NCBI GenBank assembly: GCA_017432545.1
Contig: JAFRJA010000131.1
Span: 1-37,322, forward strand
Direction of reading: 5' to 3'
From: Erysipelotrichaceae bacterium
Lineage (GTDB): Bacteria > Bacillota_I > Bacilli_A > Erysipelotrichales > Erysipelotrichaceae
DNA: 37,322 nucleotides
Shown here: piece by piece, positions 2,715-23,643 of the stretch
How the letters are laid out: every line of letters begins with the position of its first letter
How positions within the stretch are numbered: the stretch's first letter is position 1
Notes under the pieces: model-generated
Databases searched by the model: none
The model's input: only the letters and a program-made list of their open reading frames with translations
What the model was told of the DNA's origin: nothing
Position numbers and translations under genes: made by a program

Positions 2715-4377
2715 AACATGCTGCCTGCGCACTTGAGTAGTCTCCTTTGTTGTTTCCTTCTGCGTCATAGGTTTCCACAAAATCTTCATAGCTGTGGAGC
2801 TCGACATTGCTTTCGCTGGCTGCCAGTTCCTGAGCCTGCTGATCGGTGTAAAGATTTCCATACTGGTCTACATATGTATAAACCGGACCTGCCGGTCTGT
2901 TTGGTTTGCTGGCTGTATTTCCGGAGGAGCTTTCTTTCGGTTTTGCTTTTACCGTTACTTCAAACTCCTGCCGGTATTCGTTGCCGTTGTCCTGAATGAC
3001 AACAGCTGCCGGATATGTTCCGGACTCCTCAAAATTTACTGCACCTGTATCGATCGAGTATGTGCGGTTCTCGCGGGAACTTGAATACGCATATTCCCCG
3101 AAGACAGGATCGATGACTGCCTGGACATTTGCTCTGATCGCTGTCTCATCCGCCCCTTCGATCTCAATCGAGGAAGCGTTCAGCCTTACTTCAGGCTGCT
3201 TCGTATCCTGGATGCTTATCGTAAAGCCCTGAGAATTGACGGCCGTCTGACCATACTGATCTGCTTTGGACATTGTTATCGTTACATCCTGAAGACCGCA
3301 GCTTCCGGTATCGATCTGTGATATCTCGATAAGAGCCCCTTCCGGGACGCTGATGAAATAATTCTTCAGCTGATCTGGTATATTCTGAAGTTCTGCGACG
3401 CTGTTGTCTGAATATGTCAGAGCGTCTCCTGCTTCAATGACCGGAACTTCGATATCAGGATTGCTTTCAAACAGGAGCTTAGATCTGAGTTCATCCAGCG
3501 ATTTCGCTTTTCTGGATGCATCGTATCTTCTCCAGCCGATGAACCCGCCCACCGCCAGTAAAGCCAGCAGCAGGATAATGATGAACCATTTCAGCCAGCC
3601 AAGACCCGAGCTTTCATCCTCTTCGTTGTCTTCAGGGATGACCAGGTTTCTTTCCGGCTCCTTTTTTTGCGGATGTTTCTTCAGCCAGGCATCATGGATC
3701 CTGTTCCATTCTTCGTCACTGAAATCATAATCTTCCTTTTTCGGTTCTTCATTGAGGCTGGAGATCTTCAAAAGGCTGTTTTCAAATTCCAGTTTCTGCA
3801 TCCGGGCTTCTCTTTCTGCATCCTCTATGACTGTTTCTGTTTTCTTCGCTTCTTCATCTTCCTTAACGTTTTCTTTTTCTGCAGTTTTTTCTTCCACAGG
3901 AATCATTTCGCTTTCCCGCGGAGCGTCCTTCTTTTTTTCTTCCGGCTGCATCTGCTGTGCCGGGGTCTGCTGAAATAACTCTTCGGGTTTTCTTTCTGCC
4001 CTTTCCAGCGGCAGTTCCTCTACAGGTTGCTTATCCGGCAGTTCTTCCGGGAGATCAAGGTTATCCCATATCTTCTGCAGATCTTCACTCATGCTTTCTT
4101 CTTCAGATTCAGTTTCGCTTACCTTTTCCTGATCTTCAAGCAATACAGACTTCTCTTCTTTCGGCTTGACAGCTTCACTTCTTTCTTTTCTTTTTTTCAG
4201 TTCATTCCTGACACTTTGAATATTGCTTTCAGGAATGTTTATCACGTTGTCTGCGCACAGCTGAAGCAGACTTTCCAGATCTTTGTTCGACACTTCCTGC
4301 AGCCTGACTTTTTTCTGGTTAAGCTGCATTATGAGTCCCCTGATCCTTTCAATTGTATTCTGCATGTTTTCTTCCAT
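2671..4377 (-). CDS. Single-pass membrane protein, charged cytoplasmic region and extracellular beta domains
   Basis: The start ATG 4377 (about 568 residues) follows AGGAAATTG and overlaps the IscB stop as TGATG. The first ~70 residues are predicted helical. Residues ~70-250 are very rich in Glu/Lys. One transmembrane helix (WFIIILLLALLAVGGFIGW) lies near residue 270. The outside part has Ig-like beta segments with the DUF5011-like pattern (DVTITMSKAD, GTYPAAVVIQDNGN) and ends in a small Cys-containing module. It has the same architecture as the 289-residue protein at 5951-6820, with which it probably formed one operon before the IscB insertion. Function unknown; it could be a signalling or scaffold protein linking cytoplasm to cell surface. 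Confidence 0.7.
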   Translation of the reverse strand: MEENMQNTIERIRGLIMQLNQKKVRLQEVSNKDLESLLQLCADNVINIPESNIQSVRNELKKRKERSEAVKPKEEKSVLLEDQEKVSETESEEESMSEDLQKIWDNLDLPEELPDKQPVEELPLERAERKPEELFQQTPAQQMQPEEKKKDAPRESEMIPVEEKTAEKENVKEDEEAKKTETVIEDAEREARMQKLEFENSLLKISSLNEEPKKEDYDFSDEEWNRIHDAWLKKHPQKKEPERNLVIPEDNEEDESSGLGWLKWFIIILLLALLAVGGFIGWRRYDASRKAKSLDELRSKLLFESNPDIEVPVIEAGDALTYSDNSVAELQNIPDQLKNYFISVPEGALIEISQIDTGSCGLQDVTITMSKADQYGQTAVNSQGFTISIQDTKQPEVRLNASSIEIEGADETAIRANVQAVIDPVFGEYAYSSSRENRTYSIDTGAVNFEESGTYPAAVVIQDNGNEYRQEFEVTVKAKPKESSSGNTASKPNRPAGPVYTYVDQYGNLYTDQQAQELAASESNVELHSYEDFVETYDAEGNNKGDYSSAQAACYATSGTWDGRNCNY

Positions 4378-5675
4378 CAATTTCCTGCCGTGGGTACCCC
4401 TGGTTTTAGCCATGGGGAGGAAACGGCCCTCCTTTCTGTAATGTACCCGTGCTGTGAGCACAACCTCTTGATTTTTGAAGGTACGATTTCTAGCGAATCT
4501 CCTTCAAGAGTTTTTAATATGAACGAACCCTTAAGGCGTCTTCCGTGAATATACCACTCTTTGCTTTTGGCTGTTACTTTATCAAACAGTCCGAACCCCT
4601 TTACAAGATATGAAGCTTGGTTATTCTTACGAATACCGCCCTTGTTGATTTTAAACCTGTGGATTTGTCTGTTGTGACAACGTAGTTTCTTCTGATAATA
4701 GATCGTGCCATCACTAACTGCGTTTGGATTGCCGCTGATGCATCTTGCGTCAATGTAATGTTCTTTAGACAAACCTGCTTCAATACGAGAGTTCTTGGTC
4801 TTATAGCCGTAGGTAAGTTCTACATTCGGATATAAGGCTTTAAGCCTGTTATAGATTTCCCAACGCATAATACCCATAAACGACGCATCATTAAACTTCA
4901 TACTGCGTTTAATGTTGACGGGAAGTTTAACAGCTCCGCTGTGATAACCGGCATGGCAAGTCTCACATAGAGTGATCAGATTGTTAGGACTGTCACCTCC
5001 TGTTTTACGGCTTTCAATATGGTGCACATTCAATACCGGATCTTTTGACTTTCCTTTACAACATTGACAAGTATGTCCGTCTCTGAATAAGACATACTCT
5101 CTTGTATTCCAGAAGGCGAACTGCTCGCCTTGCTGGTAATCAGTGCTTCGCGGTAACTGATCACCTTCAAGAGTTGCCTTCAAGAGTTGAGTATCAAAGC
5201 TTGCGACTTCGATAATAACTTTTGAAATAGGTAATATCCTGTGTGCATCTTCTATCACTTTTAGATGACAATCGATCTTTTGTCTGATACTTGGTGCCAA
5301 CCAACCTTCTTTTTTGGAAGAGATCCTGTTATCAGAGCGTGATGCTCTGTAACGTGTCTTTCGGTTTCGCCTTGCACTACGGGCTTCACGTCTTGTAGAA
5401 ATCAACTCTACAATGTCGTTACGTAGTTCAACATCGGCTTCGTACAAGACCCTGTCTTCAGTTGTTGCGCTGAGACCGATGTGCTTTGAGCCTGAATCTA
5501 CGCCAAGCGTAATATCTTGTACAACAGCTGTTTCGGGCTCATATAACAGCTGTATGGTGAACGGACAGCGTCTTATTACTTTGGCTTTCTTGTTTTTAAG
5601 AAACCTTCTTACTTTGCCGGAACGTGATGTCGGCATAAGCGGCTGTCCGTTACTGTTTAGTACGTATGTCAACAT
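4377..5675 (-). CDS. iscB: IscB: omega-RNA-guided RuvC/HNH nuclease
   Basis: 432 residues, normal for IscB. The domains are in order. The N-terminal PLMP-type region (LMPTSRSGKVRRFL) comes first. RuvC-I GVDSGSKHIG has catalytic Asp60. An Arg-rich bridge helix spans ~95-113. RuvC-II IIEVASF has Glu156. The HNH domain (~197-246) has CQCC, NVHH (His218/219) and CETCH. RuvC-III HYIDAR has Asp309. All catalytic positions look intact. The C-terminal SSPWLKPG stretch is encoded by the right-end hairpin, as in other IS200/IS605-superfamily accessory genes. No TnpA transposase is present, so this is a solo copy that depends on help in trans for movement. It lies in the middle of an envelope operon, and its stop codon overlaps the next start. 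Confidence 0.93.
   Translation of the reverse strand: MLTYVLNSNGQPLMPTSRSGKVRRFLKNKKAKVIRRCPFTIQLLYEPETAVVQDITLGVDSGSKHIGLSATTEDRVLYEADVELRNDIVELISTRREARSARRNRKTRYRASRSDNRISSKKEGWLAPSIRQKIDCHLKVIEDAHRILPISKVIIEVASFDTQLLKATLEGDQLPRSTDYQQGEQFAFWNTREYVLFRDGHTCQCCKGKSKDPVLNVHHIESRKTGGDSPNNLITLCETCHAGYHSGAVKLPVNIKRSMKFNDASFMGIMRWEIYNRLKALYPNVELTYGYKTKNSRIEAGLSKEHYIDARCISGNPNAVSDGTIYYQKKLRCHNRQIHRFKINKGGIRKNNQASYLVKGFGLFDKVTAKSKEWYIHGRRLKGSFILKTLEGDSLEIVPSKIKRLCSQHGYITERRAVSSPWLKPGVPTAGN
4394..4416 (-). repeat. Right-end hairpin of the IscB element
   Basis: CCCC-TGGTTTTAGCCAT-GGGG is the subterminal hairpin typical of IS200/IS605-like right ends. It is embedded in the iscB 3' coding sequence. A near-identical hairpin occurs alone at 23768-23790. 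Confidence 0.65.
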
Positions 5676-5940
5676 AACATTCCTTTCTACACACTTTTAG
5701 TGCTGTAAGCCGGTTGTGTGTTACCGTAGGATACCTTCGCCAATGTTTGAAAGAGTTTAATTTGCACATCACTATTCCCACCCCTGAGAACTGTTTAAAC
5801 ACGCAACGTAGAGCAGAGGATTAGGTATAACGTCCTCCGGTACCTATATAATTTCAATCAAACGTAGTGCTCGAAGCACTCAGGCTAGTCAACAAGGGCT
5901 TTCGCAAGCCCCCGTCTTTAGACGTGGGGTGATTGACTTA
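5676..5940 (-). ncRNA. Omega-RNA (HEARO-type) and left end of the IscB element
   Basis: The 250-bp segment between the upstream gene and iscB has no reading frame and is strongly structured. Examples are CCCC-acgtctaaagac-GGGG (the left-end hairpin), GGGCTTGCGAAAGCCC, and GTGCTTCGAGCAC. IscB uses an RNA encoded directly upstream, with the 5' guide taken from the sequence flanking the left end. Here that flank is the stretch at about 5935-5955, which contains the old ribosome binding site of the neighbouring operon. The exact RNA ends were not determined. Confidence 0.78.
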
Positions 5941-5950
5941 TTCTTTCCTC

Positions 5951-6820
5951 CTATTCGCCAACCGCCACACTTCCCTTGACAGTGAATTCACCCAAAGGGA
6001 TGGCCTTATTGCTTATCTTTCCTTCTTTATTGGTCGTGGAAATGCCATAAAGCATTATTTTTGTCTCGCCGTTTTCAACATTGAGCCTTGCCAACGGGAT
6101 CTCATAGACCGCGCCGTTGATGTTAAGCTGACCCGTTCCATCAGTCCTTAATGACATCCCGGTCAGCAGCAGGAATCCGTTGGCCAGAAGCGACAGTGTC
6201 AGCAGCGCTGAAAGAACGATAACGGCGATCTTTCTTCTTTTTGCCTGTGCTGCCGTCTTTTTTATGCGCTGTTCTTTCTTTTCTATCGCCAGGCGTTCCT
6301 GATTCAGTTCTTCCTGTTTCTGCGCTTCGAGTCTTTCTTTTTCTTCCCGCTCTTTTTTTTCAGCTTCTTCTTTTTCCTGAGCGAGGCGGAGCTCTTCCTG
6401 TTTCTGCGCTTCGAGTCTTTGTTCTTCCTCGGCTCTTTGACGGTTTTCCAGTTCTTCCTGCTCTTTGCGTTTTCTTTCCGCTTCCTCCTGCTGAGCCCTT
6501 TTGCGGTCCACTTCCTCCTGAAGTGTCAGCATGTCGTCGATCGCCTTGGCGGTCTCGGCGACAGTCGGGACTCTGTATTTAAGTCCCTCTTCCGACTCCA
6601 GGAACTTTTCAAGCATCTCCATATATTTGTCTTCCGGCAGCCTGAGCACCTGCCCGTCGATCACGGGCGATGCGACGTTGCCGTACATGATGGACATCGT
6701 TCTGTGCTGTCCGTTCCAGTTTCCTCTTAACGTACCGATCTGTGTTTTTCCCGGGATCAGTTCCAGAAGATCGTCCACTTCATCGTCAAGAAAATTTTCG
6801 GTGTTCTTTTCTTCAGTCAT
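5951..6820 (-). CDS. Single-pass membrane protein with long Glu/Lys/Arg coiled coil
   Basis: 289 residues. The acidic N-terminus is followed by a compact region (~20-100). A continuous charged coiled coil rich in EEAERKRKEQEE-like heptads spans ~105-200. One transmembrane helix (IAVIVLSALLTLSLLANGFLLL) spans ~203-225. A ~65-residue extracellular beta-like tail begins MSLRTDGTG. It overlaps the upstream gene by 8 bp and shares its architecture with the protein at 2671-4377. The stop is followed by AGGAGGAAAGAA, an orphan Shine-Dalgarno now cut off from its start codon by the IscB element. Function unknown. Co-translation with the 120-residue protein suggests a shared complex. Confidence 0.7.
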   Translation of the reverse strand: MTEEKNTENFLDDEVDDLLELIPGKTQIGTLRGNWNGQHRTMSIMYGNVASPVIDGQVLRLPEDKYMEMLEKFLESEEGLKYRVPTVAETAKAIDDMLTLQEEVDRKRAQQEEAERKRKEQEELENRQRAEEEQRLEAQKQEELRLAQEKEEAEKKEREEKERLEAQKQEELNQERLAIEKKEQRIKKTAAQAKRRKIAVIVLSALLTLSLLANGFLLLTGMSLRTDGTGQLNINGAVYEIPLARLNVENGETKIMLYGISTTNKEGKISNKAIPLGEFTVKGSVAVGE

Positions 6821-7175
6821 AATCTGTTCTCCTCTCCTTCAACTGAAAAGAGAACCCCGATATAACAAGGTTCTCCATTGCTTCCTTTTTGAATTTTCGT
6901 ATTTTTTTGTCATCATCCTTGATCAGCAGCACGATCCCGTTCCTGTCGTCAAACCGTTTCCGGTAGGCATACTGGACGTTTGTGTTTCCGTACTTATTTA
7001 AGAAATCGCTGTCAGCCAGATCCTGGTATTCAACCGCGATGATCTCTGAGTTTTTATAGTCCTGCCATGATGCTTTTCTGCTGTTCATATATTTCATGAA
7101 TTTTCTGAAATCCATAAACTGAACTATGTTGCTTCCTGACAGATTGCTTTCTTTCAGAATTCTGTTTATATCCAC
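6813..7175 (-). CDS. Hypothetical 120-residue protein, first gene of envelope operon
   Basis: The start is GTG 7175 behind AAAGGAGG. The Shine-Dalgarno lies in a small self-complementary block (GAGGG-aag-CCCTC) that could limit initiation. The protein is basic-acidic mixed and soluble, with no signal peptide or membrane helix. It contains an aromatic motif (IVQFMDFRKFMKYMN) and a Lys-rich stretch near residue 95. I do not recognise the family. The ATGA-type 8-bp overlap with the next gene points to coupled translation with the membrane coiled-coil protein. Confidence 0.6.
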   Translation of the reverse strand: MDINRILKESNLSGSNIVQFMDFRKFMKYMNSRKASWQDYKNSEIIAVEYQDLADSDFLNKYGNTNVQYAYRKRFDDRNGIVLLIKDDDKKIRKFKKEAMENLVISGFSFQLKERRTDYD

Positions 7176-7207
7176 GAGGGCTTCCCTCCTTTCGTTCTAA
7201 AAAGTAA

Positions 7208-7237
7208 AACCTCTTTACCCGATGTGGCAAAGAGGTT
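7208..7237 (-). terminator. Leader hairpin with T run upstream of the 120-residue gene
   Basis: AACCTCTTT pairs with AAAGAGGTT. On the minus strand it is followed by TTTTACTTTTT, an intrinsic terminator. A weak promoter (TTTTCA, 17 bp, TACTAT at 7256-7284) lies just upstream, so the hairpin sits inside the leader and may act as an attenuator. Confidence 0.55.
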
Positions 7238-7330
7238 CTTCAATTTTGCATTTTTATAGTATCATCGTGAAAAATGTTTGAAAATATGTTTTTCTCCGTA
7301 AAACTCGGCGTTGCTGTCTGCTGCCGTTTT

Positions 7331-7350
7331 CTGGGCACCCAGGTGCCCAG
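7331..7350 (+). repeat. TGGGCACC inverted repeat, copy 1
   Basis: CTGGGCACC-CA-GGTGCCCAG. The arms extend to 13 bp with flanking TTTT/AAAA. It lies in the intergenic region upstream of the plus-strand gene at 7395. The centre reads CA on the plus strand, the direction of that gene. Confidence 0.85.
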
Positions 7351-7394
7351 AAAAGATAATAGTTGCTTATTTTTGTTTGTGCTATTATTTTGAT

Positions 7395-7664
7395 ATGGAA
7401 AACAAACAGATAAGCATCAAGTATTACAGCGAAGACCGCTCTGTCTCTTTCGACCAGACCTTCAATGTGAGTGATACCGTTTACGAAGACCTTTACTATG
7501 AAATGAAAAACTACAAAGGCGGACAGATAGATGCCGAGAGTACTCTCTATTATCTTCTTACCGCCTGTTCCTATCTCTGGAAAGCCGAAGGATATCAGGG
7601 GAAACCTAATTTTGACATAGACATGCCCGATATGAATCCTTCAGCTCAGGAATCACTTTCCTGA
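7395..7664 (+). CDS. Hypothetical 89-residue acidic protein, possibly leaderless
   Basis: I chose ATG 7395 because the protein begins cleanly there (MENKQISIKYYSED) and the upstream in-frame codons run through the inverted repeat. No Shine-Dalgarno is visible. TATTAT at 7383-7388 lies 6 nt before the ATG, the spacing expected for a leaderless transcript. The protein has alternating beta-like strands, then a helical half, and ends in a short acidic tail. No recognised domain. It converges on secE with only 10 bp between the stops. Confidence 0.6.
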   Translation: MENKQISIKYYSEDRSVSFDQTFNVSDTVYEDLYYEMKNYKGGQIDAESTLYYLLTACSYLWKAEGYQGKPNFDIDMPDMNPSAQESLS

Positions 7665-7674
7665 AACTGTCCTC

Positions 7675-7818
7675 CTAGAAAAGTGCGTTAACACCGACCT
7701 GTACAACTGTAAACAGCAGTGCATATACAGCAATTACAGCAATGGTCGTTCTTGCCAGGGCAAGAACAGTTTTCGGTTTAGGCCAGTGTATTTTTGAAAT
7801 CTCTTTAAATGTGCTCAT
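7675..7818 (-). CDS. secE: SecE, preprotein translocase subunit
   Basis: This 47-residue gene is easily missed. It starts at ATG 7818 behind AGGAGAAAA, 8 bp after the secY stop. The protein begins MSTFKEISKIHWPKPKTVL, where the KEISKIHWPK segment is the conserved amphipathic SecE helix. A single membrane helix (TIAVIAVYALLFTVVQVGV) and a very short C-terminus follow. It is at the short end for bacterial SecE. SecE clamps SecY in the membrane and is needed for channel function. Pairing with secY in one operon makes this a complete plasmid-borne translocon core; SecG and SecA are not in the window. Confidence 0.88.
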   Translation of the reverse strand: MSTFKEISKIHWPKPKTVLALARTTIAVIAVYALLFTVVQVGVNALF

Positions 7819-7826
7819 TTTTTCTC

Positions 7827-9041
7827 CTATTTTCCGACAAAGGATTTGTACTTCTTTTCCGTCATTTCGGTTCTGATCGCATTATAGAATTCAAGCGCTA
7901 CACCGACCGCAATGATGATTCCGGTTCCACCGAGTGAGAGATTATATCCAGTGATCCTGCTGACAAGATACGGGAGCAAAGCGATAAGTGCCAGAAGCAC
8001 TGATCCCAGACAGGTTATCGAATTGAGTATCCTACTGATGTATCTTTCCGTCTCTTTGCCCGGCCTGATGCCCGGAACATAGGCTTTTTCCTTGGCCAGA
8101 TTGCGAGCAACTTTTTTGGGGTCGATCTGGACATTTGCATAAAAGAAGGCAAATGCGATTATCAGCAGCGCGTATATCAGCAGCATGTACCAGGCATTCA
8201 TGCTTAATGCTTTGTTCATTTTCCTGTAGATATCATAATTTATCCATGACATGATTATCTGAGGGGCCTGAATCAGAGCTGACGCGAAGATGACGGGCAT
8301 TACCGATGCCGAGTTGATCTTCAACGGCAGATGCGTGAAATTGCCTTTAGTCGTGTTCATGGCTCTTGAATACTGAATCGGGATCCTTCTTTCCGCTTCC
8401 TGGACAATTATGACTGCAATAATGACAAAAAGATATGCGGCTGTAAAAGCAATAAACATCTTTATATCAAGCGCATTGTATGCGCTGTAGAACGAGTATG
8501 GAATTCCGGATACGATCCCGGCAAAAATTATCATTGACATACCGCTTCCGATCCCCCATTTGTCTATGATCATTCCCAGTCCGTAGGTGATCATTGCACC
8601 GATCGTCAGTATGGCGGCGATGAACAGATATGATCTGGTACCGGGGTTGGTAACATAATCGCTGAGGCTTCGGGCAAGAAAATATCCCTGAAAGACGGAC
8701 AGTACGGATCCGAAGCAGAAGGTGATGTATTCGATCTTCTTCTGCCCCTTACGGCCGTCTTCCCTCAGCTGAACCAGAAAGGGTATGACATCAGCAGAAC
8801 TAAGCAGCGATATAACGATGCTTGCACTGAGGTATGGCCCGATCCCCAGCGAGAAGAGCGACATCTGTTCGATTGCTCCTCCCCCGATCAGATTGAGCAT
8901 GCTCAGAAAGGAACTGCCCAGTATATCGATCACATCTCCGTTGAAACCGGGCGCTCTGATATTCTTTCCTATAATATATAGAAGCATGACCCCTGTCGTG
9001 ACCAGCAGCTTATTCCTGATTTTTCTGTTTTTCAGAAACAT
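7827..9041 (-). CDS. secY: SecY, protein-conducting channel
   Basis: 404 residues (housekeeping SecY is ~430), about ten membrane helices. Diagnostic segments are GIGPYLSASIVISLLS, GIGSGMSMIIFAGI, EAERRIPIQYSRA, LPLKINSASVMPVIFAS, ANVQIDPKKVARNL with YVPGIRPGKET, and GGTGIIIAVGVALE. The plug and cytosolic loops appear retained and the C-terminal tail is short. It starts with a TAATG overlap on the upstream gene and is followed by secE. A second Sec channel on a plasmid is unusual. Accessory SecY2 normally travels with SecA2 and a glycosylated serine-rich adhesin, none of which is seen here. The likely clients are the many signal-peptide proteins of this element (inference). Confidence 0.95.
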   Translation of the reverse strand: MFLKNRKIRNKLLVTTGVMLLYIIGKNIRAPGFNGDVIDILGSSFLSMLNLIGGGAIEQMSLFSLGIGPYLSASIVISLLSSADVIPFLVQLREDGRKGQKKIEYITFCFGSVLSVFQGYFLARSLSDYVTNPGTRSYLFIAAILTIGAMITYGLGMIIDKWGIGSGMSMIIFAGIVSGIPYSFYSAYNALDIKMFIAFTAAYLFVIIAVIIVQEAERRIPIQYSRAMNTTKGNFTHLPLKINSASVMPVIFASALIQAPQIIMSWINYDIYRKMNKALSMNAWYMLLIYALLIIAFAFFYANVQIDPKKVARNLAKEKAYVPGIRPGKETERYISRILNSITCLGSVLLALIALLPYLVSRITGYNLSLGGTGIIIAVGVALEFYNAIRTEMTEKKYKSFVGK

Positions 9042-9394
9042 TATGCCTGAGTCTCCTTGTGATATTCATTATAGTGTTCACAGTTTTCACATTCCATATC
9101 ACAGTCCATCAGCAAAAACTCATCAGCGATCTCTTCAAGCAGATCGGCTGGGTTTTCATAGCCATAGCTGTCTGAGGTGAACAATATCAGCTTGGCGAGC
9201 GATGATGCTACATCGATATCCTCGATCCGAGTGTCGATGTTGCCAATATGAACCAGCTCATATTCTTCATCCATGATCTCACCGTATTCGTCATAGTCGT
9301 ACTCGGTTTTAACCGCCAGAACATGAACGTGGTTGTCCTTGCATCCCTCTACATGCTTTATAATAATGTCTCTGAATGATCTGTTTTCTTTCAT
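9041..9394 (-). CDS. Hypothetical acidic protein with CxxC, upstream of secY
   Basis: 117 residues from ATG 9394, chosen because AAAGGAAATTT precedes it; the longer in-frame extension lies inside the upstream gene. The protein is very acidic. The N-terminal half contains HVHVLAVKTEYDYDEYGE. The C-terminus has CDMECENCEHYNEYH, a possible metal-binding cluster. The stop overlaps the secY start (TAATG), so translation is probably coupled. No family recognised. Confidence 0.6.
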   Translation of the reverse strand: MKENRSFRDIIIKHVEGCKDNHVHVLAVKTEYDYDEYGEIMDEEYELVHIGNIDTRIEDIDVASSLAKLILFTSDSYGYENPADLLEEIADEFLLMDCDMECENCEHYNEYHKETQA

Positions 9395-9419
9395 AAATTT
9401 CCTTTCGTTCTTTTTGTAC

Positions 9420-9950
9420 TTACCAAACTTCAGCGGTCTGGAGCGGTTCTCTTGCGATCTCGATTTCTTCGATCTCATCGACTTCCGGCAGCGAACTGGA
9501 ATCAAGTGCCGCCAGAAGTTCCTTTGTATCGGCATACAGTTTTTCAACTGTTTTTTCGATCTCCATCAGGCCTTCTGGGTTTTTTAACTTAGAACCCGTG
9601 TTCCCGGTGATCTGCACCGTGGCATTGATAATCCCATGCTTTGCTTCAAGCAATTCCATTTCTGAAACGATCTGTGAAAGTTCATAATCGTATTCTTCTT
9701 TTTCGATCTGCTTGAGTCTGAGAAGCCTGTCAAGATCTTTCACCCTTTCCTTAAGGTGTCTGACCATGCCTTTTTCGACCTGTTCCTTTTCCGGTTCAAT
9801 AATGTCAAGATTTTCTCCTAGGATCGTCAGAGTTCCTTTTGGTTTTTCTTCTTTAACTTCTTCTGTATTTATGGCAGGCGACGCTTCCTGAGCAATCGGG
9901 CTTGCCGTATTTGTGTTTCTGTTGTGGTTGCGATTTCTTCTTTTTGACAT
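9420..9950 (-). CDS. Hypothetical coiled-coil protein
   Basis: 176 residues. The basic, Asn/Arg-rich N-terminus (KRRNRNHNRNTNT) is followed by a short beta-like segment (GTLTILGENLDII) and then helices with heptad character (~60-115 and 130-165). The C-terminus is acidic. The start ATG directly follows the stop codon of the previous gene (TAAATG), with AGGAGAG as the ribosome binding site. A soluble oligomer is likely. Function unknown; part of the operon that ends in secYE. Confidence 0.6.
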   Translation of the reverse strand: MSKRRNRNHNRNTNTASPIAQEASPAINTEEVKEEKPKGTLTILGENLDIIEPEKEQVEKGMVRHLKERVKDLDRLLRLKQIEKEEYDYELSQIVSEMELLEAKHGIINATVQITGNTGSKLKNPEGLMEIEKTVEKLYADTKELLAALDSSSLPEVDEIEEIEIAREPLQTAEVW

Positions 9951-10526
9951 TTACTCTCCTTTTTCGTTCTTCTTTTTTGTTTCTTTCGCAAGATCTTCGA
10001 GATATTTTTTATGTTCCTTGCGGATTTCCGATATCCTGGTCTCCGTTTTTCTTTCGAAGGTCAGTGAAATATATCTGTCCTTTTCACACATCCTGTAGAG
10101 TTTCCCGCACTTCGGGACAATGACGTCTTTGATTACTTCGTTTACAGTGTGTCTGAATTTGCTGTCGGATAATCCTACCTTGCGCGCTATGCCTGCGATG
10201 GTCCCGCCGTTCAGGTAGATATCGCAGATATACGGTCTGATGGGCTGTTCCGACAAACAGACCAGATTTTCTATTTCTTCCGTGATTTCCCTTTTGAAAG
10301 CTCTTCTGGCTTTGAGCTCATCCAGCCTTTCAAACAAGTTGATCTTGCTGCTGGTCTTCCCCGTTTTAGTTGTTTTAGAGCTGATGACACGACTCAGATC
10401 ACCCGATACCGGAGCGAAGATTATGGTTTCCAGCTCCTCTATCTGTTCATCCAATTCAACAATCTGTCTGTTAAGCGCTCCATACATTGAGGCGATGACT
10501 CTGAACGGTGTGCTAATTGATGCCAA
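9951..10526 (-). CDS. Putative DNA-binding protein with sigma-70 region-4-like HTH
   Basis: 191 residues from TTG 10526 (GGAG 9 nt upstream), overlapping the previous gene by 14 bp. The N-terminal ~50 residues are helical. The middle has LNGGTIAGIARKVGLSDSKF, a helix-turn-helix of the kind used by sigma region 4 and small phage ArpU/terminase-like regulators. The C-terminal ~50 residues are a very basic helix. A transcription regulator or DNA-packaging-type small protein is possible. The pair of HTH proteins in succession suggests they work together. Confidence 0.55.
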   Translation of the reverse strand: MASISTPFRVIASMYGALNRQIVELDEQIEELETIIFAPVSGDLSRVISSKTTKTGKTSSKINLFERLDELKARRAFKREITEEIENLVCLSEQPIRPYICDIYLNGGTIAGIARKVGLSDSKFRHTVNEVIKDVIVPKCGKLYRMCEKDRYISLTFERKTETRISEIRKEHKKYLEDLAKETKKKNEKGE

Positions 10527-10875
10527 CCGAGTTTCTCCATCCCTTGAGTCGTTTTTCGAGGCTGCTTAAGGATATCTTCATCTCATCTGCCACTTCCTCA
10601 AACGGAGTCCTGTCAACATAGATTTTCCACATGATGTCTCTGGCGCTTTCTCCGCATGTCTTTTCAATACTTTCAAACGTTGACTGGCACAGATACAGAT
10701 TATCCGCCAGCATTCCGATCTCTACTTCCACAGCTCTTCTTTTGGCAACAATGTCCGATCTTCTTTCGATATTGTCCCTGAACAGTGGTGTGTTCAAGGT
10801 CTGGTGCATTTCACCGAAAAGCTGTTTCTGAACATTATAATTTTTGCATAATGCCCTGAATTCTCTGCTCGTCAT
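10513..10875 (-). CDS. Putative HTH protein, sigma-like fold
   Basis: 120 residues, mostly helical. Residues ~80-115 (IYVDRTPFEEVADEMKISLSS onward) form a helix-turn-helix of the sigma-70 region-4/DUF1492-like type, where a helical N-terminal domain is followed by an HTH. It overlaps the next gene by 14 bp, which implies coupled translation. Function is inferred only from the fold pattern; it may control late or operon-specific transcription. Confidence 0.55.
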   Translation of the reverse strand: MTSREFRALCKNYNVQKQLFGEMHQTLNTPLFRDNIERRSDIVAKRRAVEVEIGMLADNLYLCQSTFESIEKTCGESARDIMWKIYVDRTPFEEVADEMKISLSSLEKRLKGWRNSVGIN

Positions 10876-10884
10876 AACCCGCTG

Positions 10885-11109
10885 TTACTCCTCATTAAAG
10901 AACAGTGAACCGACAGTGGTCTTGTAAAATCGGGCGATCCTTTGCTTCACTTCCGGTCTGGGAAATCTTGCGTTGTGCTCATAGGCTTTGAGGCTGTATT
11001 CCGTGATCCCGATCTGTTTGGCCGCCTGTTTCCTGCTCAGATTTTTTTCTTTTCTCAATCTGAGCAGTTTCTCTCCGATACTGATGCCTTTTTCCTGATT
11101 GTTCTTCAT
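10885..11109 (-). CDS. Xre-family transcriptional regulator
   Basis: 74 residues, a single HTH_3 domain: GEKLLRLRKEKNLSRKQAAKQIG, then ITEYSLKAYEHNARFPRPE, typical of Cro/CI-type proteins. ATG 11109 follows AGGAGGGTTT. A strong promoter (11214-11242) with an ACACATTTTGTGT palindrome at the start site precedes it. It is transcribed divergently from the second repressor gene at 11349 and heads the operon that leads to secYE, so it probably represses its own operon or the divergent one. Confidence 0.85.
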   Translation of the reverse strand: MKNNQEKGISIGEKLLRLRKEKNLSRKQAAKQIGITEYSLKAYEHNARFPRPEVKQRIARFYKTTVGSLFFNEE

Positions 11110-11194
11110 AAACCCTCCTTATCGATTTGTAGGCAGTATATGTGTCTATATACCCGTTTTGTATCCTTTATAAGATTTTATTAAATCGCTAAAG

Positions 11195-11242
11195 ACACAT
11201 TTTGTGTACTTTTATAATAAACAACAGGTGGTCTTATGTCAA
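11195..11242 (-). promoter_or_regulatory. Divergent control region: promoter of the Xre operon and operator
   Basis: Minus strand: -35 TTGACA (11237-11242), 17 bp, -10 TATTAT (11214-11219). The palindrome ACACA-TTT-TGTGT at 11195-11207 covers the start site. Further TTTTGTGT copies lie at about 11243-11252 and 11288-11302. This is the layout of a two-repressor switch. Confidence 0.6.
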
Positions 11243-11348
11243 GGTTTTGTGTATGTTTTTCGGTATGTATCTCTATTGATAGATACTTTTTGTGTCTTTT
11301 GTGATAAAATACACTTGTCAAAGGGTGTGCTTAAAAAGGAGAAAAAGG

Positions 11349-11981
11349 ATGGAAAACGGAATGGGTAACATTATCAGAAACTTACGTCTTGAAAGAAATC
11401 TTACGCAGGATCAGCTGGCTGAACATCTTGGAGTATCTGTCAGCGTAATAAAAAAATGGGAATCCAACAGCAGGATTCCCAAATTGATATCACGGGAAGC
11501 TATTTGTGATTTTTTCAGTATCGACATGAATTATCTGATGGGTCTGACCCCTATCAAAGTCTCTCTTTCAGAAGAAAGAATTATCCAGATTCCGCTTTAT
11601 GACTGTTCAGGACTTAACGAAAGCTTTGATGCGGGCAGCATTGTTGATACTGTTATTCTTCCGAAATATATGCTTAATCCCGATCGTGATTATTTTGCGA
11701 TATGCATACGCGATAATTCCGTTGTCGATGCCAATCTGAAGAAAGGCGACATTGCGGTGTTTGAAAAGGCAAAGTTTCTCTATTCCGAACAGATCGGTCT
11801 TTTCCTGATCGGAAACGAGGTGTGCTGCCGCTATTATGTGAACGAGAAGAAAAACATCAGGCTTCTGGCTCTTAATACCGATTATGGTTCCTTTGAAAAT
11901 ACATCTTTTATCATTCTTGGAAAACTTGCCCTGAAGATCTCCAATGAACAGTTTGATTTCATTCCTGATCCGGATCTCTGA
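11349..11981 (+). CDS. CI/LexA-like repressor with degenerate S24 domain
   Basis: 210 residues from ATG 11349 behind AAAAGGAGAAAAAGG. Residues ~5-60 are an HTH_3 domain (RLERNLTQDQLAEHLG, then SVSVIKKWESN). After a linker, residues ~85-205 show the S24 (UmuD/LexA-type) fold: IPLYD near the start, RDNSVVDANLKKGD where GDSMxPxxxxGD is expected, and EVCCRYY where the catalytic Lys normally sits. The Ser appears present but Met and Lys are replaced. Self-cleavage may therefore be lost, and it may act as a stable or ligand-controlled repressor. It is divergent from the small Xre gene. Confidence 0.8.
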   Translation: MENGMGNIIRNLRLERNLTQDQLAEHLGVSVSVIKKWESNSRIPKLISREAICDFFSIDMNYLMGLTPIKVSLSEERIIQIPLYDCSGLNESFDAGSIVDTVILPKYMLNPDRDYFAICIRDNSVVDANLKKGDIAVFEKAKFLYSEQIGLFLIGNEVCCRYYVNEKKNIRLLALNTDYGSFENTSFIILGKLALKISNEQFDFIPDPDL

Positions 11982-20511: not shown

Positions 20512-20585
20512 TGGAGCGGATAGTCGGATTTGAACCGGCATCTTCTGCTTGGAAGGCAGAGGTCCTACCCTTGAATGATATCCGC
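20512..20585 (-). tRNA. tRNA-Gly (anticodon TCC), CCA encoded
   Basis: The acceptor GCGGATA/TATCCGC is fully paired. The anticodon arm is TCTGC-CTTCCAA-GCAGA. The T loop is TTCAAAT with one C-A mismatch in the T stem, followed by encoded T-CCA. Sequence similarity to ordinary bacterial tRNA-Gly is good. It reads GGA codons. Confidence 0.93.
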
Positions 20586-21098: not shown

Positions 21099-21102
21099 TG
21101 AT

Positions 21103-21175
21103 GCTTCCCGAGGGACTCGAACCTCTGATATGGTCGCTTACAAGGCGACTGCCGTTGCCACTGAGCCAGGGAAGC
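21103..21175 (-). tRNA. tRNA-Thr (anticodon TGT)
   Basis: The acceptor GCTTCCC/GGGAAGC is perfect. The anticodon arm is GTCGC-CTTGTAA-GCGAC. The D arm has three pairs. The T arm GAGG-TTCGAGT-CC(C)TC needs a bulge, so it is slightly irregular. CCA is not encoded. It starts ~20 nt after a strong promoter. Confidence 0.88.
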
Positions 21176-21192
21176 GGGTTGTCTATATTTCT

Positions 21193-21221
21193 ATTATAAT
21201 CATATGGTGCCAAGGTGGCAA
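21193..21221 (-). promoter_or_regulatory. Promoter of the tRNA-Thr / RNA A / tRNA-Gly unit
   Basis: Minus strand: -35 TTGCCA (21216-21221), 17 bp, -10 TATAAT (21193-21198). The GGCACC/GGTGCC hexamer (21206-21211) sits in the spacer. It is one of the strongest promoters in the window by consensus. Confidence 0.75.
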
Positions 21222-21242
21222 GCCGTTTTTTCCATTTTCTGC

Positions 21243-21281
21243 AAAAAAAACAGGGGACGAAGTTTTTTACGCCTCGTCCCC
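21243..21281 (-). terminator. Strong intrinsic terminator after structured RNA B
   Basis: GGGGACGA pairs with TCGTCCCC (21253-21260 with 21274-21281), followed on the minus strand by TG and eight Ts. Confidence 0.88.
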
Positions 21282-21284
21282 GGT

Positions 21285-21905
21285 CTGAATCATTTTCTGA
21301 TCCTGAATGCACCATTTCACTTTCACCCTTAGGGAGGCTACTGCGCTTCCTGATGCACTGATCCGTTTACAGTGGACCATCTGTTGGAATATAAACTGCT
21401 TTTATGCATGATCATATTCTAATCGACTGTTCCAGACTGATTTTCGTCAAGTCTGGCTGTTTATCCTCCGGATGCCGGATCCGGGAGCCGTCTTTCTTGA
21501 CGACATTCGTTTTCGGCTGTTTGAGCCTCGCCGGGATCAAATAATCTGATCTGACGAATGGATGGCACTTGTGCATCGTGCCGCTCTTCTTGGACGCCGG
21601 TTCCCCAAGGACAGTTGCACCACTTCCCTGGCGGATGGATATTACGACGTGTTGTAAACCCTATGGCTTGAAGATGCGCGGCTTGTCGCTTCATCTGACC
21701 GGTTTTACGGCTTGACTGGCGATGGTTCCCGACATCTGCAAGTAAAAATATAGTTTCAGCCTTTAACGGAGCAGCCCGAGCCCTGTATAGGACCGTCAGA
21801 ACGTCTCACGCACAGTTTTCTGTTAAACCGCCGGAACGTACAGCCGATGAACGTTTCTCAGCCCCTTTTTTGGAAAGGGCGGGGGATACGTACAACCTGA
21901 TTTAT
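21285..21905 (-). ncRNA. Structured RNA B downstream of infA
   Basis: About 620 bases without a credible gene lie between infA and the terminator. Hairpins on the minus strand include CACTG/CAGTG (21356-21374), CCAGACT/AGTCTGG (21432-21456), CCGGAT/ATCCGG (21468-21484), GGCAC/GTGCC (21564-21582), a long-range ACGAATG/CATTCGT pair enclosing GATCA/TGATC, AACGT/ACGTT (21835-21855), and GCCC-TTT/AAA-GGGC (21861-21880). This is consistent with a second large folded RNA or a long structured 3' region of the infA transcript. Confidence 0.55.
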
Positions 21906-21920
21906 GCCTAAGATCGGGTA

Positions 21921-22160
21921 TCAGCTTCTGGTATGAACATGGCTGTCTTTCTTCCTATAGACAATCCGGCCTTTTGTAAGGTCATACGGGGACAGCTCTA
22001 CTACGACTCTGTCATTCATGAGAAGGCGAATATTTCCGGTCACGATTTTGCCGGACGCATAAGCCCTCACAACAATGCCGTTATCAAGCTTAACTTCAAA
22101 CTGTCTGCTGGGATGAATATCAACGATGACGCCATCCACTTTTACCAAATCTTTTGACAT
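21921..22160 (-). CDS. infA: Translation initiation factor IF-1
   Basis: 79 residues, a single OB (S1-like) domain. KVDGVIVDIHPSRQFEVKLD matches the IF-1 N-terminal strands. ASGKIVTGNIRLLMNDRVVV and the signature VELSPYDLTKGRIVYRKK are diagnostic. IF-1 binds the 30S A site with IF-2 and IF-3. A plasmid copy is unusual because the chromosome should carry an essential infA. No Shine-Dalgarno precedes ATG 22160; TATTGT lies 7 nt upstream, compatible with a leaderless transcript. It sits between two large structured RNA regions. Confidence 0.93.
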   Translation of the reverse strand: MSKDLVKVDGVIVDIHPSRQFEVKLDNGIVVRAYASGKIVTGNIRLLMNDRVVVELSPYDLTKGRIVYRKKDSHVHTRS

Positions 22161-22177
22161 TTAACTGACAATATTTT

Positions 22178-22197
22178 CTGGGCACCTGGGTGCCCAG
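22178..22197 (-). repeat. TGGGCACC inverted repeat, copy 3
   Basis: On the minus strand it reads CTGGGCACC-CA-GGTGCCCAG, ending 17 bp before the infA start. The centre is in infA orientation. Confidence 0.85.
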
Positions 22198-22199
22198 GA

Positions 22200-22877
22200 T
22201 TATTTAGGAATTGTTCTCTCAATTCAAATGACTTAGACTGTTTCCAGATACCTTCTACAATTTACTCGTGATTTTGCCAACGACGAGTACCTGCCGTTCC
22301 CAGGGGAGCTACCCTCAGGTACAGATACCCAAATCAAACCTCGAAGGACTGATTCCTAAGATCGTACAGGGCTGATACCTGCAATGAGACCCGTGATACG
22401 GAGATCCTTAAACGAATTAGTAGTGTTTGTTCTGTATCACTAGAAATATTTATGCCATTTATGGTCTTTGAGCCTCATACCACGCGCGCAACGTTATACA
22501 CCGGTTTCCCGGCTTCACGACCGTAACCTTGTTTCGCATACCTGGGTTTTCCTGATTTGCGGGATCAGGACTCTCCCGGCTTATTCCCACAGGGCGTCTA
22601 TTGCGATTACCGTTGCTGTGTGCATTCACGACCGATCATATTAGTGCCACATCTTAGTGTTTTTACGCTTGGCATGCCTTTGCCTCGTCTCCGGCTGTTA
22701 CCAGTCAGAAGAAAGTAGGGGATATAACGTATCCGTCATACCCGTCATCTCCAACTGTCCGATGTGCCCCGGAACATCTCACACGATGTCTTTACACCGG
22801 GTTCTAAATCATAAGAATTCAAAGAACAATTTCCGTACCATTGTCAATCAGGCAAATGTCATCTTAACAATGGGTGT
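22200..22877 (-). ncRNA. Structured RNA C (~650 nt), large ornate-type candidate
   Basis: The segment has no credible gene and is closed by a terminal helix: GGAAATTGTTCT (22823-22834) pairs with AGAACAATTCC (22207-22217) with one bulge, continuing to AATTC/GAATT. Internal hairpins are CCCGG/CCGGG stacked on ACATC/GATGT (22766-22803), TCCTGAT/ATCAGGA (22550-22570), CCGG-GAAA-CCGG with a GNRA loop (22501-22512), GTGATAC/GTATCAC (22393-22440), GTACCTG/CAGGTAC (22287-22322) and ACTCG/CGAGT (22264-22288). It has its own promoter (22884-22912). The size, tRNA neighbourhood and RepA_N plasmid setting resemble ROOL-type RNAs. The class is not proven. Confidence 0.72.
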
Positions 22878-22883
22878 ACTATT

Positions 22884-22912
22884 ACAATACTATGGCACCA
22901 AATTGTTGTCAA
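22884..22912 (-). promoter_or_regulatory. Promoter of structured RNA C
   Basis: Minus strand: -35 TTGACA (22907-22912), 17 bp with GGTGCC inside (22894-22899), -10 TATTGT (22884-22889). It is strikingly similar to the promoter at 30456-30483 (both have CAAT-TGG-T-CCAT-G-TATTGTAA). Confidence 0.65.
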
Positions 22913-22931
22913 TATTTTTTAGGAAAAATTC

Positions 22932-22951
22932 TTGGGCACCTGGGTGCCCAA
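22932..22951 (-). repeat. TGGGCACC inverted repeat, copy 4
   Basis: TTGGGCACC-CA-GGTGCCCAA on the minus strand. It lies between the promoter of RNA C (minus) and the poly-G promoter of the second lipoprotein (plus). Confidence 0.85.
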
Positions 22952-22982
22952 GATCATTCCAGAAGCTTAAAATGTCATCAGC

Positions 22983-23009
22983 TTGACAAAGCGGGGGGGG
23001 GGTTAATAT
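22983..23009 (+). promoter_or_regulatory. Second promoter with G10 spacer
   Basis: -35 TTGACA (22983-22988), a 15-bp spacer holding ten Gs (22993-23002), -10 TAATAT (23004-23009). Its spacer is one base shorter than the sister promoter at 16466-16493. Confidence 0.7.
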
Positions 23010-23019
23010 TTAACCATCA

Positions 23020-23073
23020 GAGCTCTCCCAGACACATTCTGACATGTTTTGAATGTGAAAGGAGAGCTTTAAT
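23020..23073 (+). promoter_or_regulatory. Second copy of the Shine-Dalgarno-sequestering leader
   Basis: AGCTCTCC (23021-23028) pairs with GGAGAGCT (23061-23068). Between them CACATTC/GAATGTG forms an inner stem. The same design occurs at 16503-16557. Confidence 0.65.
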
Positions 23074-23643
23074 ATGAATAGTACAATTAAAAAAATCATT
23101 TCTTCTTTTCTGGTGCTTTTACTCCTGACAGGATGCATGACTATAAGGGCCGAAGATAGTCCGGAAACCAATGATCCTGAAACGATCGAAGTTGAGCAGA
23201 TGACCGAGGATGAATCCGGAGAGGTTTTGGAAAACGGCGATTCCGAGATATATCAGGATGAAGGCAACAGCGAATTCGTCTTCGACGAAGAAATCGAGGA
23301 AAACCAGCCTCAAGGAAATGCCGAAGAAGGGCAAAGCGTTCAGGATGAGGATGTTTTGAATGAGAAAGAAACCAAAACTGATGCAGCGGACATAAATGAT
23401 ATATTGGATTATTGTGAAAATGATGTAAGAAACAAAATAGATAAAATGTTTACCAATACGGATGATTCCCAGAATGTCTATATATGGACCCGCAGTACGT
23501 TCGTAAACAGTACGGGTGGCAACAAAAACAGAGGATATGCAGTTAAAACACAGACAGACGGGGGATTCATAGGAACATATGACTGTAAGGATGAATATGA
23601 AACCAGACCTGTATTTTGGATCGACCTTGATCGGTTCGAATAA
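23074..23643 (+). CDS. Short paralogue of the DUF6273-like surface lipoprotein
   Basis: 189 residues from ATG 23074 behind GGAGAG. The signal peptide ends LLLLTGC, a good lipobox, followed by MTIRAED as in the large paralogue. An acidic spacer (~30-105) follows. The last ~70 residues (IWTRSTFVNSTGGNKNRGYA, then GGFIGTYD and TRPVFWIDL) look like the C-terminal part of a DUF6273 domain. It is much shorter than the 784-residue paralogue, so it is either a minimal version or a deletion derivative. It shares the same G10 promoter and self-pairing leader. Confidence 0.72.
   Translation: MNSTIKKIISSFLVLLLLTGCMTIRAEDSPETNDPETIEVEQMTEDESGEVLENGDSEIYQDEGNSEFVFDEEIEENQPQGNAEEGQSVQDEDVLNEKETKTDAADINDILDYCENDVRNKIDKMFTNTDDSQNVYIWTRSTFVNSTGGNKNRGYAVKTQTDGGFIGTYDCKDEYETRPVFWIDLDRFE

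Follow-up and report, generated by a model that had tools for sequence, protein, structure and literature searches.

A divergent ROOL RNA gene, likely specifying a cage-forming RNA, next to an initiation factor IF-1 gene on a probable plasmid contig of an Erysipelotrichaceae bacterium

Judged from its sequence, the minus strand of positions 22218..22825 in the window (the whole 37,322-nt stretch analysed here, contig C82 of a 219-contig assembly) is a gene for a ROOL (rumen-originating, ornate, large) RNA, a divergent member of a family whose octamers have been resolved by cryo-EM (PMC12286853), with octamers also reported by Ling et al. according to the description of that work in PMC12515178. 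The RNA is likely to assemble into an octameric cage, and we put the probability of ROOL identity and cage assembly together at roughly 0.9. The family itself is already known, and what is unusual here is only the neighbourhood, in which a gene for translation initiation factor IF-1 follows. The Rfam ROOL model RF03087 matches over its full length (model positions 1-574 of 574) with 219.8 bits (E ~1e-48), the cut-off being 99.1 bits, and the Rfam search found this single ROOL copy in the whole 3.4-Mb assembly. An initial annotation had proposed a divergent member of ROOL or GOLLD at 22200-22912; the match bears out ROOL, and those coordinates were off by no more than a few tens of bases, with the RNA on the minus strand. 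The gene and its parts are as follows.

22218..22825, minus strand: ROOL RNA, covering the whole Rfam model (RF03087, 219.8 bits)
22884..22912, minus strand: probable sigma-70-type promoter, TTGACA-17-TATTGT (consensus scan, 10 of 12 matches)
22832..22880, minus strand: 5' leader between promoter and ROOL core, with hairpin CCATTGT/ACAATGG (sequence; fold of -11.0 kcal/mol)
22803..22831, minus strand: terminal helix P1, 5' arm (inverted repeat; homologue columns 83-94% paired, with 3-6 pair types)
22557..22563, minus strand: hairpin loop with CGCA, L8 by position, half of a presumed intermolecular kissing contact
22535..22538, minus strand: junction UGCG, presumed partner of CGCA in the kissing contact
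22500..22513, minus strand: GNRA hairpin GCCGG-GAAA-CCGGU (ROOL model alignment and fold)
22395..22467, minus strand: variable linker of 73 nt (a loop for which the ROOL model has no consensus structure)
22209..22237, minus strand: terminal helix P1, 3' arm (inverted repeat; homologue column pairing)

The initial annotation had described a gene-free transcript of ~650 nt with its own promoter, a terminal helix whose ends lie ~615 nt apart, and internal hairpins including a GNRA loop, and these sequence features were all recovered, the promoter as a promoter-like site. From the probable transcript start, placed near 22877, to the end of P1 (~22209) the distance is ~670 nt; the two arms of P1 form an inverted repeat of 29 nt that is 83% complementary, with outer ends ~620 nt apart; and several further hairpins accompany the GAAA hairpin at 22513..22500. 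The longest minus-strand ORF inside the ROOL region has 56 aa, and a plus-strand ORF of 109 aa with a GTG start merely overlaps the 5' end of ROOL. The promoter at 22912..22884 is one of nine promoter-like sites in the region, as against 3.3 +/- 2.1 in shuffles, so that a single site is weak evidence on its own. On the minus strand the fold reaches -205.4 kcal/mol (z = -4.07), a value equalled by none of 20 dinucleotide shuffles; a plus-strand transcript was rejected, since its fold is less stable (z = -2.56 against dinucleotide shuffles) and no RNA family scored above cut-off on that strand. Under the Rfam alignment, the window forms 127 of the 154 model pairs as standard pairs, and the 27 unformed ones suggest that some of the peripheral helices are either different or wrongly registered. 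Folded without constraints, the RNA has a minimum-energy structure that is not that of ROOL and lies below it in energy, as often happens with RNAs this large that have tertiary contacts.

Support for the structure comes from homologues. Scanning for the core motif (CAATAGACGC...GAATAAKCC) gave 46 viral-contig stretches and another 40 on genome contigs, some of them chance matches, and an Rfam search of 41 genomes gave three congeners with ROOL. An iterated profile search seeded with the window collected 65 ROOL-like stretches, among them the window and those three congeners, and all five profile-search stretches that were re-checked passed the Rfam model. After removal of near-copies, 36 distinct near-full-length sequences were aligned with MAFFT on sequence only, the other members being at most 49% identical to the window (median 42%). 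When the model pairs were laid on this alignment, 62.6% of cells held standard pairs, with 908 double-change cells and at least one change on both sides in 130 of 154 pairs, compared with 38-49% paired and 336-518 double-change cells once partners were slid by 1-3 columns; the structure is the model as fitted to the window, and part of this excess is expected. The helices that are 80-100% paired and rich in double changes lie well beyond that expected excess: individual helices are 82-100% paired, and UAAUC/GGUUA reaches 99.4% with all five of its pairs changing on both sides. In this sequence-only alignment, the pairing of several peripheral helices is poor. P1 was also the top stem in a column search that used no structure. 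In the aligned sequences, the ROOL helices, including the terminal helix, are conserved and covarying across homologues, and covariation, proposed as a check with the initial annotation, came out in favour of its pairings. Loop L18 (a conserved symmetric loop, bridge B6) reads GUAGCU in the window and GUCGCU in most members, and GUAGCU recurs in several others.

The case for a cage turns on one contact. In the published octamers, loop L8 pairs with junction J6/8 of the neighbouring chain to form bridge B4 (PMC12286853), and both the octameric cages and the J6/8-L8 contact are described in two publications (PMC12286853; PMC12515178). From their place in the structure, the loop and junction of the window are presumed to correspond to B4. 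At least four consecutive Watson-Crick pairs between the loop and its own junction can form in 31 of the 36 members, compared with a mean of 10.9 and a largest value of 20 in 1000 shuffles in which partners were dealt at random, a control that ignores relatedness, so that the excess is somewhat inflated. The pairs vary widely (UGGC/GCCA is usual, alongside UGGU/ACCA, UAGC/GCUA, UGAC/GUCA, UGAU/AUCA, UUGCC/GGCAA and others), a variety that would be hard to explain otherwise than by a conserved loop-junction contact. The combination in the window, CGCA/UGCG, occurs in none of the other 35 members compared, and because complementarity is nonetheless kept, octameric cage assembly by this RNA is likely. 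By analogy with the published ROOL structures, eight copies would assemble without protein into a hollow cage ~28 nm across, in which the loop-junction contact would join neighbouring chains and the 73-nt linker would sit inside; in the published cages the linker is disordered and inside the cage (PMC12286853). ROOL RNAs are among the largest known RNA-only assemblies, and the persistence of the inter-chain contact in so divergent a sequence, through double-sided changes, supports the biological importance of the cage.

Two other accounts of the locus were weighed against a functional ROOL RNA. That it is a degenerate, untranscribed ROOL remnant might be argued from the 27 of 154 model pairs that are non-standard in the window and from a score below those of some congeners (294.7 bits in one of them), but we hold this to be very improbable, given that the best helices are intact, the kissing contact stays complementary via changes on both sides, the promoter-like site is correctly placed and other full-length members score in a similar range (192-295 bits). 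The alternative of a new class of large RNA, as the initial annotation had also suggested, or of a GOLLD RNA can draw on an identity of no more than ~49% to any other ROOL found and on the lack of a blastn match to the ROOL stretch in phage or plasmid collections, but as far as sequence can show it is refuted by an end-to-end ROOL match far above cut-off, by covariation that agrees with the ROOL structure and by the GOLLD model. Both Rfam models had been named as checks in the initial annotation: ROOL matched, and GOLLD gave no match in the window at the gathering score, nor in 21150-23100 at E up to 1. Like the RNA described here, GOLLD is large and structured and is found on mobile elements close to tRNAs; it makes a cage, a 14-mer (PMC12286853), but it differs in sequence and secondary structure. 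With the ROOL family of RF03087, the RNA of the window has in common the full-length architecture, the terminal helix, the GNRA hairpin, the core motif CAAUAGACG, the variable linker, the loop-junction kissing contact and tRNA genes nearby; it differs in its 42-49% identity to the members compared, in the CGCA/UGCG contact, in its plasmid contig and in the IF-1 gene directly downstream.

The contig is very probably a plasmid, because it carries RepA_N, ParA and a ParB-like protein, and because it has a palindrome in common with contigs that bear conjugation genes. A second ParB_N protein, a phage-type integrase, SecY (7827-9041, minus strand) and three tRNAs are also encoded in the window. Proximity to tRNAs, pointed out in the initial annotation, is typical of ROOL (PMC12286853), and tRNA genes lie near ROOL here and in most related loci. 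The parallel drawn there with a long, abundant non-coding RNA of a Ligilactobacillus salivarius megaplasmid (PMC5643018) was apt, as that RNA is treated as ROOL (PMC12286853) and RepA_N is present here too. The two thus share the family and a large plasmid, but in L. salivarius a helix-turn-helix protein gene lies downstream and a PTS component upstream, whereas IF-1 is downstream here, and the L. salivarius RNA is an abundant transcript, whereas that of the window is a predicted one.

Downstream of the ROOL gene, the following features were found on the same strand.

21921..22160, minus strand: infA-like gene for translation initiation factor IF-1, 79 aa (PF01176, E 1.2e-18)
21240..21920, minus strand: ~650 nt without recognised gene or RNA family, with a strong fold and a terminator at its end (z = -4.39; no Rfam family)
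21240..21276, minus strand: intrinsic terminator, GGGGACGAGG hairpin then U8 (sequence; hairpin in fold)
21102..21175, minus strand: tRNA-Thr (TGT), preceded by a promoter-like site of its own, TTGCCA-17-TATAAT at 21221..21193 (11 of 12 matches)
20512..20585, minus strand: tRNA-Gly (TCC)

The plasmid IF-1 is 46% identical to that of E. coli, and a second infA is present in the assembly on contig C46. Of 72,556 plasmid records, 119 contain IF-1 relatives, and several of these 119 are as large as a chromosome. Among the other collected ROOL loci, many of whose stretches reach only a few kb, none has IF-1 beside ROOL, and IF-1 as a general ROOL partner was therefore rejected for now; only one viral relative of IF-1 turned up, and its 8.2 kb contain no ROOL motif. 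The stretch at 21240-21920, between infA and tRNA-Thr, is possibly a second structured RNA, its z-score of -4.39 coming from 20 shuffles with the terminator included; it had no match in congeners, phages or plasmids. Given the positions of promoter and terminator, this stretch may belong with ROOL and infA to a single transcription unit. A fuller proposal, that ROOL, the plasmid IF-1 and a second large structured RNA (~21240-21920) of a new family form one transcription unit that ties the cage to translation initiation, is in our estimate unlikely; if true, a mobile element would couple a cage RNA with translation initiation, and a new RNA family would be added. An IF-1 gene, perhaps within the ROOL transcription unit, is a concrete lead to translation initiation.

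As to what ROOL may do, we tentatively favour a cage that holds or protects translation components, a reading that is possible rather than probable and that draws on the repeated tie to tRNA islands and on the IF-1 gene here. The mobile element would be served in that components such as tRNA, ribosomal subunits or initiation factors are held or shielded by the cage. Two alternatives appear more doubtful than a cage for translation components, and about equally so. ROOL could work chiefly in cis, forming a very long, folded leader of the downstream IF-1 message and controlling or stabilising that message. In favour of this, only ~50 nt separate the end of ROOL from the infA ATG on the same strand, no T-tract terminator intervenes, a single strong terminator follows the unit (~21240), and no Shine-Dalgarno sequence is visible before the ATG. 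Nonetheless, a weak promoter-like site precedes infA (22227..22199), the RNA of L. salivarius accumulates as a stable molecule of its own (PMC5643018), and cis control cannot be the general role of the family, because IF-1 adjoins no other collected ROOL locus. An RNA that serves to maintain large RepA_N plasmids, or to set their copy number, would fit the RepA_N replicon found here, as the initial annotation mentioned for the L. salivarius megaplasmid, and a role in megaplasmid upkeep was suggested by the authors of PMC5643018; against it, most descriptions of ROOL genes come from phages and prophages (PMC12286853), 46 motif-bearing stretches in our scan came from viral contigs, and RepA lies ~9 kb away in the window, not adjacent.

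The ROOL gene is flanked by two copies of the palindrome.

22179..22196, no strand assigned: palindrome TGGGCACCTGGGTGCCCA, between ROOL and infA
22933..22950, no strand assigned: palindrome TGGGCACCTGGGTGCCCA, upstream of the ROOL promoter

Its imperfect 16-bp core, GGGCACCTGGGTGCCC, has 18 exact copies in the assembly, confined to contigs C82, C126, C170, C189, C208 and C210; six are in the window (at 7333, 16401, 22180, 22934, 29266 and 30517, all between genes), where ~0.01 matches would be expected by chance, and 12 are elsewhere. Contigs C170 and C208 encode conjugation proteins, and from the common palindrome we infer that the six contigs are pieces of one conjugative plasmid, whose contigs it can be used to group. 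The palindrome is probably not a terminator, a role rejected because the 18 exact copies have no constant T-tract; a protein-binding site (for a ParB-like protein, for example) or a repeated element appears more likely. Other genes were noted on these contigs. The palindrome-bearing contig C189 has a Cas12a (Cpf1) gene (3766-7413, minus strand), and C126 encodes an anaerobic ribonucleotide reductase large subunit (7625-11857, plus strand) with an HNH endonuclease domain inside the frame, perhaps an intein. In the window itself (4377-5937, minus strand), a HEARO RNA (RF02033, 5726-5937) adjoins an RRXRR/HNH protein (4377-5675), the two making up an IscB/IsrB-like RNA-guided nuclease pair.
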